Positions 4,862-7,667 of a stretch of 64,000 bases of DNA are shown here, piece after piece. The stretch lies in NCBI RefSeq assembly GCF_009882935.1, contig NZ_WTVA01000015.1, positions 124,001-188,000 of the forward strand, read 5' to 3'. Below the pieces are notes generated by a model. That model was not told where the DNA came from. It worked only from the letters and a program-made list of their open reading frames with translations, and did not search any database. The stretch is from Sneathiella chungangensis (GTDB taxonomy: Bacteria; Pseudomonadota; Alphaproteobacteria; Sneathiellales; Sneathiellaceae). Every line of letters starts with the position of its first letter. Position 1 is the stretch's first letter. A program made the translations under genes and the position numbers.

Positions 4862-5179
4862 TCAAAACTGCTCAAGCCATAGTTTCAGTTCAGCTTCCGT
4901 CTCTGACGGGTCGCCTTTTACCAGCACCGTCTTGTTGCGATCAAGCTTGCCGGCAATAATGTCAAAGCTTCCCCGGGCATGCTTGATTGATTTCGACAAT
5001 AATTTGACCAATGCGCCGTTGGCTTTCCCTTTTTCCGGCACTGCCGTGACCTTGACCTTCAGACGCGGACGTCCTTCACCGTCGATGAAAATAGTTTCAA
5101 TACGGTTTTGCGCCGCATTCGGAGACAGCCGGATATCGAGCAAAACTCCGTCGTCACTTTTTCTGATAGGCAGGGTCAC
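4862..5179 (-). CDS. DUF167 (YggU-like) family protein
   Basis: 105-residue small cytoplasmic protein of the DUF167/YggU family, recognised from [13 protein letters not shown]-type phrasing near the N-terminus, [23 protein letters not shown] in the centre and the [15 protein letters not shown]-terminus. Its start overlaps the yggT stop by four bases (5176-5179), which points to translational coupling. The biochemical role of the family is not established. The yggT-DUF167-folD order is common in alphaproteobacteria. Confidence 0.88.
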
Positions 5180-5463
5180 ATCATTTGCGGCGCATACTCG
5201 AACAGGAGATTGCGTAGGAAGATAAGCAGCAGGATCAGGATCACCGGTGAAACATCAAGCCCGCCCATCGTCGGAATGACCTTCCTGATCGGCCGCAGCG
5301 GCGGCTCGGTTATCCGGTAGAGGAAATTACCCACTGTCGAAACGAACTGATTGCTCGTATTGACCACGTTAAACGCCACGAGCCAGCTCAGAATGGCATT
5401 CGCGATCAAAAGCCAAATGAATATGTTTATGATCGCACTGATCAGAAGGAGTAAGGATGTCAT
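5176..5463 (-). CDS. yggT: YggT-family membrane protein
   Basis: 95-residue inner-membrane protein with two hydrophobic segments (residues about 4-28 and 68-88) separated by the typical YggT loop containing YRITEPPLRPIRKVIP. It heads the minus-strand group yggT-DUF167-folD and overlaps the next start by four bases. YggT proteins have been linked to osmotic or ion stress and to membrane protein assembly, but the molecular role is unclear. Confidence 0.9.
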   Translation of the reverse strand: MTSLLLLISAIINIFIWLLIANAILSWLVAFNVVNTSNQFVSTVGNFLYRITEPPLRPIRKVIPTMGGLDVSPVILILLLIFLRNLLFEYAPQMM

Positions 5464-5507
5464 GTATATACCTGCTCGATTTAATCCACCCTACATTTAG
5501 GCGCTAA

Positions 5508-5535
5508 GCCCGCAAAAGGCAACCGTTCTGCGGGC
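5508..5535 (-). terminator. Possible terminator hairpin between AsmA-like gene and yggT
   Basis: A 7-base perfect inverted repeat (GCCCGCA / TGCGGGC, 14-base loop) lies 33 bases after the stop of the gene at 5568-6218. No clear U-run follows on the minus strand, so it may instead be a processing or Rho-dependent end. Confidence 0.3.
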
Positions 5536-5567
5536 GCATGCCAGCGCAAATCGTCAGATTCTCTCGC

Positions 5568-6218
5568 TCACGGGTGAAGCGCCGAGGTCGTCGCCTGATT
5601 AACCACCTGGGTCAGAACCGCCTGAACGAAATCCGCCTGGCTCATGCCGTCGCCGCTGCTGCCCAAATTGCTCATCTTGATGTCGGGTAATGTCAAAGAA
5701 ACCTTGGTCGATAGCGGGTAAATTTTACCGGACAGCTTCGCACCGGTAATCGTCAGGTCATCGACGCGGAGTTTTTTCGCCTTATTGCCGGATTTATCGG
5801 CGGTAACGGCATACGCGGCCGCGGCAGCGAGGATGATCGTGAGGTTTGAACTCGTGGCACTCGTTTCAAGATCCACCGCCGGATTGGTAATCTCGATTGA
5901 CCTGATATGAAGCGGCCCCCACAGGATGCTCCAGGGGACAATCCTGATTTCGGCCTTGTCGACCACGAAACTTGTGGGCGACGACCCGATGCCGGAATTG
6001 GGAACCGTCAATCCATTGATCGTTCCCCGGCCGGTAAAAATGCTGACATCGAAGGCATCCAGGGTCACTTTTTCTCCTGTCGCCGCGCTTCCGACCAGTG
6101 TAATGGCATTCCAGCCCGTGGAATTGACATGCCGCTCGGCCTCGCGGACACCGACGACGACGGCCGCCACAATGACGACAAAGAGGCCGCCTTTGACAAG
6201 AAGAGAGGTAATTTTCAT
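5568..6218 (-). CDS. AsmA-like membrane-anchored protein
   Basis: 216 residues. An N-terminal hydrophobic anchor (residues 5-24, LLVKGGLFVVIVAAVVVG) is followed by a beta-rich domain resembling the N-terminal part of AsmA-type proteins: VTLDAFDVSIFTGRGTINGL, a RIVPWSILWGPLHIRSIEI segment, then a VDDLTITGAKL strand near residue 150. Such proteins face the periplasm and are linked to lipid traffic or envelope integrity; the role here is inferred. Full AsmA proteins are much longer, so this is a short family member rather than a truncation I can prove. Its ribosome-binding site is buried in a hairpin (6224-6265). Confidence 0.6.
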   Translation of the reverse strand: MKITSLLVKGGLFVVIVAAVVVGVREAERHVNSTGWNAITLVGSAATGEKVTLDAFDVSIFTGRGTINGLTVPNSGIGSSPTSFVVDKAEIRIVPWSILWGPLHIRSIEITNPAVDLETSATSSNLTIILAAAAAYAVTADKSGNKAKKLRVDDLTITGAKLSGKIYPLSTKVSLTLPDIKMSNLGSSGDGMSQADFVQAVLTQVVNQATTSALHP

Positions 6219-6223
6219 GAGAC

Positions 6224-6265
6224 TATCTCCGGTTCCCGAATAAAAAAGTTCAGGAATCGGAGATA
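6224..6265 (-). promoter_or_regulatory. Hairpin enclosing the Shine-Dalgarno site of the AsmA-like gene
   Basis: On the minus strand two 17-base arms (6249-6265 and 6224-6240) pair at 16 of 17 positions: 15 Watson-Crick pairs, one G-U and one mismatch, with an 8-base loop. The 3' arm contains CCGGAGAUA, whose GGAG sits 8 bases from the AUG at 6218. The Shine-Dalgarno sequence is therefore fully paired with CUCC in the 5' arm, which should limit translation until the stem opens. No U-run follows, so it does not look like a terminator. Confidence 0.65.
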
Positions 6266-6328
6266 ATCATTAGTTGTTTTTATTCAATATTAAAACACTT
6301 TTTAAGGGAATCTATAGGATCGAGCCGG

Positions 6329-7189
6329 TTATTTGAACTCAGGTTCCTCCCACCAGGGGTAAAAATCCGGCATATCCACGGACGGGCGCATGGAGAATTT
6401 GGCCGGGCGCTTTTCAAGGAAGGAGGTCACGCCCTCTGCAACATCCGGGCTCTGGCCCATCATGGCGATACCGCGGCTGTCTATTTTATGGGCTTCCATG
6501 GGATGGTCGGCGCCAAGCATCCGCCACATCATCTGCCGGCAAAGCGCCACGGAAACCGGCGCGGACTCGGCTGTCATCTCCTTGGCGAGGCGGCGGGCGG
6601 CGGGGAGCAGGTCCTCTTGCGGATGAACCGCCTTGACGAGCCCGCCGGCCTTCGCCTCATCGGCCGGAAAAATCCGCCCGGAATAAACCCATTCCGCCGC
6701 CTGGGAAATACCGACTAGGCGCGGGAGGAACCAACTGCTGCAAGCCTCCATCACGATACCCCGGCGGGAGAAAACGAACCCGATCCGCGCCTTGTCCGAG
6801 GCAAGGCGAACGTCCATCGGCAGCGTCATTGTCGCGCCGATCCCGACCGCCGGGCCATTGATCGCGCCGATAATCGGCTTTTTCGACTGATACATCCGGA
6901 GGGTGACGCGCCCGCCGCCATCGCGGTGCAGCTCCCCCTCCTTCTGCACACCGCGCGCCTTGTAGTTAAAGGTGTCCTTGCCGGCACCAAGATCAGCCCC
7001 GGCACAGAAGGCGCGCCCGGCGCCGGTGACGATAATGGCGCGGACGTCATCATCCGCATCCGCCTTGTCATACGCATCGATCAATTCGTCGCGCATCGTG
7101 ACGGTAAAAGCATTCAGATTATCTGGGCGATTCAGGATAATGGTAAGAATCTGGTCTTCAACATCATACAGGATATGTTCGTAGGACAC
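6329..7189 (-). CDS. Enoyl-CoA hydratase/isomerase (crotonase) family protein
   Basis: 286-residue crotonase-fold enzyme acting on acyl-CoA thioesters. The oxyanion-hole segment GAGRAFCAGADLGAG and the second helix PIIGAINGPAVGIGATM are clear. A C-terminal MWRMLGADHPMEAHKID segment resembles enoyl-CoA hydratases used in fatty-acid or aromatic degradation. The start is a GTG at 7189 preceded by CCGGAGG at good spacing; the longer form from 7240 lacks such a site. It diverges from the DOPA-dioxygenase family gene. The exact substrate is unknown. Confidence 0.88.
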   Translation of the reverse strand: MSYEHILYDVEDQILTIILNRPDNLNAFTVTMRDELIDAYDKADADDDVRAIIVTGAGRAFCAGADLGAGKDTFNYKARGVQKEGELHRDGGGRVTLRMYQSKKPIIGAINGPAVGIGATMTLPMDVRLASDKARIGFVFSRRGIVMEACSSWFLPRLVGISQAAEWVYSGRIFPADEAKAGGLVKAVHPQEDLLPAARRLAKEMTAESAPVSVALCRQMMWRMLGADHPMEAHKIDSRGIAMMGQSPDVAEGVTSFLEKRPAKFSMRPSVDMPDFYPWWEEPEFK

Positions 7190-7316
7190 GGGTTTTCCTC
7201 CGGTTATTTTGTTTTTTATGGTGCCGGGCTGTCTTGCCATGACATGGCGGCGGCGAATGACTATGTTAACTTTGATAGGCTTGAGAAGGCCAGTGAATTT
7301 TCAGAGGAAGATCGCC

Positions 7317-7667
7317 ATGGCAAAGGATGCGGCGCAATTGATTACCGGCTATCACGCCCATGTCTATTATCAACCGGAGACCAAGGCGGCGGCCGGGGAA
7401 ATCCGCGACCAGCTCGGCGAGCGGTTTGACGTGACCCTGGGTCGCTGGCATGACGCACCGGTTGGCCCGCATCCGATTTCGATGTATCAGGTGGTCTTCG
7501 CGGTGACGGAGTTTTCGAAAATCGTTCCCTGGCTGATGCTCAACCGTCAGGGGCTCGACATTCTGGTTCATCCGGAAACGGGCAACGATCTTGAAGATCA
7601 CCGCGACAACGCGCTTTGGCTCGGCGAGAAATTGAAGCTGAACCTGGCGATGTTCGAAACCGCCTGA
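7317..7667 (+). CDS. DOPA 4,5-dioxygenase family protein
   Basis: 116-residue protein of the DOPA_dioxygen family: small extradiol-type aromatic ring-cleaving enzymes, or relatives, with histidine metal ligands. Visible motifs are GYHAHVYY near the N-terminus and LVHPETGNDLEDHRDNALWLG in the C-terminal half. The ATG at 7317 has AGAGGAAG just upstream; the longer frame from 7209 adds 36 unlike residues. It stands alone facing gcrA, with 9 bases between stops. The natural substrate of bacterial members is mostly unknown. Confidence 0.85.
   Translation: MAKDAAQLITGYHAHVYYQPETKAAAGEIRDQLGERFDVTLGRWHDAPVGPHPISMYQVVFAVTEFSKIVPWLMLNRQGLDILVHPETGNDLEDHRDNALWLGEKLKLNLAMFETA

Follow-up and report, generated by a model that had tools for sequence, protein, structure and literature searches.

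The locus and its distribution

The window (the whole 64,000-nucleotide stretch of Sneathiella chungangensis DNA that was analyzed) carries on its minus strand a row of genes in the order enoyl-CoA hydratase (ECH), asmA-like, yggT, DUF167 and a gene that, from its product, we take to be folD (Table 1). The start of the ECH gene was set by us at the GTG at 7189, which follows a GGAGG, within an open frame that extends to 7240. The protein encoded between ECH and yggT scores 30.6 bits with the Pfam model DUF748, whose cut-off is 50; no model of the AsmA clan matches it above the curated cut-off, a scan of NCBIfam yielded no match, and confidence in its AlphaFold model is low (mean pLDDT 54.8). 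Among the seven orthologs of our protein alignment, A1, DUF748 is matched at E 0.01 or better in all and the AsmA and YhdP models in one each. By these profile matches, "AsmA-like" is a fair but weak label, and no firmer name is used because the DUF748 score lies below the curated cut-off.

Table 1. Features of the asmA-like locus, with positions counted in the window
Feature	Positions	Strand	Remarks
yggT gene	5176..5463	-	Downstream; syntenic anchor for finding the leader in distant species
asmA-like gene	5568..6218	-	216 aa; small AsmA-like (weak DUF748) membrane protein; masked Shine-Dalgarno site
3' arm	6221..6240	-	Carries the Shine-Dalgarno site; inverted repeat and predicted fold
Shine-Dalgarno site GGAG	6227..6230	-	8 nt before the AUG (6216-6218); fully paired in the predicted fold
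Loop CTTTTTTA	6241..6248	-	8 nt; differs among relatives
5' arm	6249..6268	-	Carries the anti-Shine-Dalgarno CTCC; inverted repeat I1, 85% complementary, and predicted fold
-10-like TATCTC	6260..6265	-	Putative; inside the 5' arm, 16 nt after the -35-like hexamer
-35-like TTGAAT	6282..6287	-	Putative, by sequence resemblance
ECH gene	6329..7189	-	Co-directional, upstream; presumed source of run-on transcripts

Across 24 genomes of the genus Sneathiella, an asmA ortholog was detected at E 1e-15 or better in 10, with ECH being traced in 20 and yggT in 21; named relatives with this locus are Sneathiella sedimenti, four Sneathiella MAGs and one Proteobacteria MAG (6 loci). A second layout, i.e., VanZ-like, asmA-like, yggT, is found in 10 genomes, wherein the VanZ assignment is supported by Pfam in all three proteins scanned (one slightly under the cut-off). 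The AsmA-like proteins of this vanZ type are distant from that of the window (14–26% identity in the five aligned): DUF748 was detected, below the cut-off, in six of the seven scanned, and eight of the ten genes reach E 1e-3 or better in comparison with the protein of the window, with those of G004 and G023 being assigned by position (G023 also has a DUF748 match). In G023 (L051/L088) the order ECH, vanZ, asmA, yggT appears in one row and links both layouts, which suggests an intermediate in the gain or loss of the VanZ-like gene. In G040, from another genus of the same order, the nearest AsmA-like match lies far from yggT, and no AsmA-like frame stands beside yggT among the frames of at least 85 codons.

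Leaders could be read in 18 of the 24 genomes, 8 of the ECH type and 10 of the vanZ type. The ECH-type leader of G002 (L042:1383-1435) is counted although most of asmA is deleted there; this genome retains a perfect stem and has a mutated -35-like site. Excluded were G017 (L040), which has lost the hairpin along with the 5' part of asmA; G020 (L014/L044), with a diverged leader, a diverged asmA (about 48–50% identity) and an uncertain start codon around which a different stem seems to form; G022, which has ECH and yggT with no asmA between them; and three incomplete or fragmented genomes that lack a yggT match and have their protein matches elsewhere (G012, G005, G007). Judging from these remnants, asmA is decaying in two relatives, G002 and G017. 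In G001 (L038/L013), asmA is interrupted close to its 3' end by two in-frame TAG codons, on account of which G001 was omitted from A1; its -35-like site is altered as well.

A hairpin that encloses the Shine-Dalgarno site

Directly ahead of the start codon, 17-base arms, TATCTCCGATTCCTGAA and TTCGGGAACCGGAGATA, pair at 16 of 17 positions, just as a preliminary description of this DNA had reported; there are 15 Watson-Crick pairs, one G.U and a single A.C mismatch. The same description had placed the GGAG completely within the stem and at good spacing from the AUG, and the predicted fold agrees, with all four of its bases paired at a probability of 1.0. The segment from -60 to +3 folds at -27.4 kcal/mol (z -6.8), a stability reached by none of 200 dinucleotide shuffles, and the 149-nt region around the hairpin retains a folding z of -3.1. 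Of the 35 genes in the window with a Shine-Dalgarno match of at least 4 bases, their starts being called by a simple script, asmA alone shows an upstream pairing probability of the site above 0.9. Among 41 genes from other loci of the same genome, 2 also lie above 0.9, but for all 41 opening the site is computed to cost at most 7.5 kcal/mol, versus 15.0 for asmA. Thus, a hairpin with the Shine-Dalgarno site wholly inside its stem is confirmed at the level of predicted folding.

Several commonplace identities for such a hairpin could be set aside. The stem has no U-run, and a scan of 5400-7400 finds no intrinsic terminator at it, so that the earlier remark that it is no plain terminator holds. 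No Rfam family is matched in the window at the gathering threshold, which speaks against a known riboswitch or other known RNA family, and the top matches below that threshold in 6000-6500 are unrelated ones that fall well short of their cut-offs. A dispersed repeat (REP, MITE) is not indicated either: apart from the locus, a DNA search of the own genome returned five chance matches of 14–26 bases. A covariance model, R1, built from the 8 ECH-type leaders and run over the 24 genomes, found the asmA leader of the same 8 genomes only, among the candidates scored; these were 150 of 472–1166 first-look candidates per genome, so that weak copies elsewhere could be missed. This model also matches the opposite strand at the same place in 5 of the 8 genomes and fails to recognize the stems of the vanZ type. 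Finally, a short upstream open reading frame of seven codons over the 5' arm (ATG ATT ATC TCC GAT TCC TGA) is present in the window, and none of the 7 other ECH-type leaders has an ATG at that place.

Masking is retained while the letters change

The preliminary description had proposed the presence of the stem in relatives as a test, and in the predicted folds of all 18 leaders both G of the Shine-Dalgarno GG pair upstream with a C or U partner. Pairing of this kind is common in such short segments, being seen in 33 of 64 other leaders that served as control (Fisher p 6e-5). Around the GG the pair types vary: the position before it is a G-C pair in 8 folds, A-U in 3, U-A in 1 and G-U in 1, and is unpaired in 5. 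For these counts the start of asmA in G011 and G023 was taken as the second ATG, and the Shine-Dalgarno position was set by hand in G013, G021 and G006; the automatic choice likewise gives 18 of 18. At the level of the ensemble, the median upstream pairing probability is 0.76 for asmA versus 0.12 for yggT and 0.19 for folD of the same loci (with 16 of 21 and 14 of 19 of these control leaders, respectively, having a Shine-Dalgarno site), with just 7 of the 18 asmA leaders exceeding 0.9. The median cost of opening the site is 7.9 kcal/mol in the 18 leaders versus 2.2 in the 41 other genes (p 5e-7). The fold z lies below -2 in 14 leaders, the exceptions being G004, G016, G011 and G003; G016 is exceptional also in its upstream pairing, which falls to 0.03 in a 100-nt context.

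Among the 8 ECH-type leaders, 94.2% of the 120 pair cells hold standard pairs versus 39–57% when the partner is slid by 1–3 columns. Compensatory changes, which had been suggested as a check on the stem, present a divided picture: the covariation score of 0.286 is reached by only 7 of 500 shuffles, whereas changes on both sides occur in 2 of the 15 stem pairs, a count equalled by 113 of 500. Between the ECH and vanZ types the letters of the stem are largely different, and the loop varies among relatives. Taken with the folds, this supports masking of the Shine-Dalgarno site being kept across the genus as its letters change. At the same time, a stem of this kind may persist without function, because G002 keeps its perfect form before a largely deleted gene.

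An inverted repeat might serve as DNA or as RNA, and the two leave different traces: a palindrome acting as DNA tolerates G.T and A.C mismatches equally, whereas on its own strand an RNA stem accepts G.U alone. In the alignment of 8 sequences, G.U cells number 15 and A.C cells 2, and the mRNA strand is predicted to fold more stably than its complement in 14 of the 18 leaders, the mean difference being 3.8 kcal/mol (Wilcoxon p 0.002); the leaders being related, neither count represents independent events. Because G.U outnumbers A.C and the mRNA strand is the more stable one, alignment and modeled folds argue that the hairpin is an RNA stem rather than a DNA operator.

A promoter-like block at the 5' arm

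In most genomes a promoter-like TTGAA-N16-TATATC adjoins the 5' arm, with the -10-like hexamer reading TATATC or TATATT in most relatives. Six of the 8 ECH-type leaders have TTGAAT; it is missing from G001 (TTTAAA) and G002 (TTTAGT), the same two genomes whose asmA reading frames are damaged. Among the vanZ-type leaders, TTGAA stands at exactly -22 from the start of the -10-like hexamer, with 4–5 of the 5 letters present in 8 of the 10 leaders and a mean match at this offset of 4.3 versus 2.9 at the next best one, a comparison for which the -10 anchors were placed by eye. An automatic search gives its best match with a 16-nt spacer in 12 of the 18 leaders, a descriptive figure since the pattern was derived from the same sequences. 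In the own genome TTGAA-N10..24-TATATC occurs 27 times versus 19 for the reversed pattern, at many spacings, and is hardly enriched; the block also goes undetected in a sigma-70 scan of 5400-7400. The -10-like TATCTC of the window is poor, and G001, G011, G008 and G003 are likewise without a good block.

According to PMC9320726, the dcmA promoter of Methylorubrum has a 16-nt spacer and the -10 element TATAGA, and the T at -7 is reported absent in Methylorubrum dcmA, Zymomonas and Caulobacter. The 16-nt spacer and the -10 without T at -7 seen here agree with these reports on alphaproteobacterial promoters (PMC9320726).

Two further motifs were observed in this region. Many leaders have what we read as a TTG-N8-CAA half-dyad inside the block, which could make the latter a transcription factor site instead. 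Upstream of the -35-like site, several ECH-type leaders (L040, L041 and others) carry a palindrome like CACTTTTAAAGTG, which is perfect in G017 and degenerate in the window (CCCTTAAAAAGTG, 6296-6308, minus strand); it could be an activator site.

A stem that may sort transcripts by their origin

These features can be joined in a tentative proposal, to which we accord slightly less than an even chance, that a cis-acting RNA stem masking the Shine-Dalgarno site sorts run-on transcripts from those of the gene's own promoter. Transcripts running on from ECH in the window, or from the VanZ-like gene in other species, would carry both arms; with both present the GGAG would be buried, and hardly any AsmA-like protein would be made from such mRNA. 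The -10 of the promoter-like block, in turn, lies at the base of the 5' arm, so that the gene's own transcripts would start within the arm, with the RNA beginning about 7 nt after the -10. Lacking the anti-Shine-Dalgarno, these would have a site that is far easier to open and would be translated. Computation shows the stem, its RNA-strand character, the retained masking, the conserved block and the lower opening cost once the arm is cut, whereas we infer that the block is a promoter, that its start point lies there, that run-on occurs and that translation tracks exposure of the site.

The folding side of this scheme was computed with the arm cut 7 nt downstream of the -10. Opening the stretch from the Shine-Dalgarno site through the AUG is then predicted to cost a mean of 5.0 kcal/mol in the 18 leaders, down from 12.0, and 6.2 in the window, down from 18.6; in G010, G011, G015 and G016 the cost changes little if at all. 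When 60 nt of coding sequence are included, the cut lowers the pairing probability of the site only from 0.84 to 0.76, because the site then pairs weakly elsewhere; we rely on the opening cost over the pairing probability, and another weighting is possible.

On the side of transcription, a terminator scan of the interval that separates asmA from the preceding gene is negative in 17 of the 18 leaders, the match in G021 being the hairpin itself. Where ECH does not stand directly before asmA, 6 of 9 genomes have a strong terminator after it (L047, L050, L052, L053, L054, L055); of two genomes with a decayed or diverged asmA, G017 has a weak match. Run-on transcription into asmA is plausible from these scans, as terminators are found after ECH in most genomes where asmA does not directly follow it and not, the hairpin of G021 aside, in front of asmA.

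The preliminary description had regarded a transcript beginning inside the hairpin as counting against its reading, and the conserved promoter-like block suggests just such a start; the hairpin would then be a mask on run-on transcripts and not idle. That the anti-Shine-Dalgarno arm is at the same time the stretch from -10 to +1 of a promoter belonging to the gene itself, with the choice of promoter alone deciding whether the mRNA can be translated, seems to us a credible idea with the balance tilting somewhat against it. The same guarded standing applies to the joint proposition that this overlap of arm and promoter is a genus-wide chromosomal feature, kept despite the exchange of the upstream gene (ECH or VanZ-like) and the replacement of most stem letters.

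Competing explanations

The stem might simply limit how much of a low-copy envelope protein is translated from any transcript, with the block being no promoter or irrelevant. This would explain the masking without a start inside the arm, and it sits well with the block having no general enrichment in the genome and with the poor -10 of the window. We nevertheless regard it as unlikely: it leaves unexplained the fixed distance of TTGAA while the spacer and the upstream gene change, and an opening cost of at least 10 kcal/mol, as computed for 5 of the 18 leaders, would nearly silence the gene.

The preliminary description had taken the element for a translational switch of the AsmA-like gene. 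What endures of this is an RNA stem that masks the Shine-Dalgarno site and is kept genus-wide; what does not are the particular devices that it named. An RNA thermometer is not supported, since in 17 of the 18 leaders the site is predicted to be exposed at less than 5% even at 60 C (G016 is open at every temperature tested). Nor is recognition of a fixed loop or sequence by a small RNA, ligand or protein, since the loop and many stem letters vary and the covariance model found no further copy in the 24 genomes among the 150 candidates scored in each. Both a thermometer and a loop-binding partner are unlikely because of this closure at 60 C and the variable loop; a trans-acting partner that co-varies with the stem is possible. 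In its general form, regulation would act on the transcript bearing the full stem, with an RNA-binding protein, a helicase, a species-variable small RNA or translation of the upstream gene serving to open it. The retained masking and the putative status of the promoter in the block are in keeping with such a switch, to which we grant a low probability in view of the changing loop and stem letters, the want of an Rfam family at the gathering threshold and the leaders that stay closed at 60 C. With respect to translation of the upstream gene in particular, the distance from its stop to the first ATG in the asmA frame is 31–97 nt in the 10 vanZ-type leaders and 110 nt in the window, a variation that makes a coupling mechanism common to the leaders unlikely.

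A long double-stranded stem between two co-directional genes might also act in mRNA processing or stability, e.g., by offering RNase III a cleavage site or by stabilizing the 5' end; this is quite improbable, for the stem includes the Shine-Dalgarno GG in all 18 predicted folds, a feature that a processing stem does not need. A DNA inverted repeat serving as a transcription factor operator could be accommodated by its overlap with a promoter-like block that bears the half-dyad in many leaders and is very improbable, given the excess of G.U over A.C, the more stable mRNA strand and arms too different between the locus types to leave a common operator.

Comparison with known systems and implications

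Stems that mask the Shine-Dalgarno site are well known, as is, in phage, the device of a promoter placed in one arm. In T4 gene e, according to PMC3014915, longer transcripts form an inhibitory structure, a helix holding the Shine-Dalgarno site and/or the AUG, that lowers lysozyme synthesis 100-fold. Promoters just upstream of the gene overlap the DNA for the 5' strand of this helix, and their transcripts are without that strand; the T4 soc, 49 and I-TevI leaders are described there as having a like device (PMC3014915). The locus described here resembles gene e in having the Shine-Dalgarno site in a helix on the longer transcript, predicted in our case in 18 of 18 folds (weakly for G016 in a longer context). 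It differs in that gene e is a phage gene with mapped starts and a measured effect, whereas ours is a bacterial chromosomal case built on predictions, with a vegetative-type promoter as a guess.

A parallel might also be struck with IS10 and IS50, in which transcription entering from outside yields run-on RNA whose fold covers the transposase gene's ribosome-binding site; those are mobile elements that use their terminal repeats, whereas the asmA stem is a single-locus element in one genus. The RNA thermometers ROSE and fourU likewise hold the Shine-Dalgarno site within a stem of the 5' leader, and in contrast to them the asmA stem is predicted to be too stable to open in the physiological range and has no Rfam match. 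Masking of the site is possible in riboswitches and sRNA-controlled leaders too, from which the asmA element differs in being about 50 nt long and having no conserved aptamer, loop or seed. A chromosomal case ahead of an AsmA-like gene was not found in our searches of the open-access literature.

Even without the promoter, masking of the Shine-Dalgarno site that is kept with little conservation of sequence would still be a clear case of a conserved function whose letters are not conserved. Other genomes can be screened for the anatomy itself, i.e., a promoter-like block adjoining an anti-Shine-Dalgarno arm. If the proposed sorting is true, such genes would be misjudged in RNA-seq and operon predictions, their run-on mRNA being silent. 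Moreover, it would mean that a chromosomal gene is insulated from its neighbor's transcription at the level of translation, with the overlap of promoter and anti-Shine-Dalgarno arm taking the place of a terminator.
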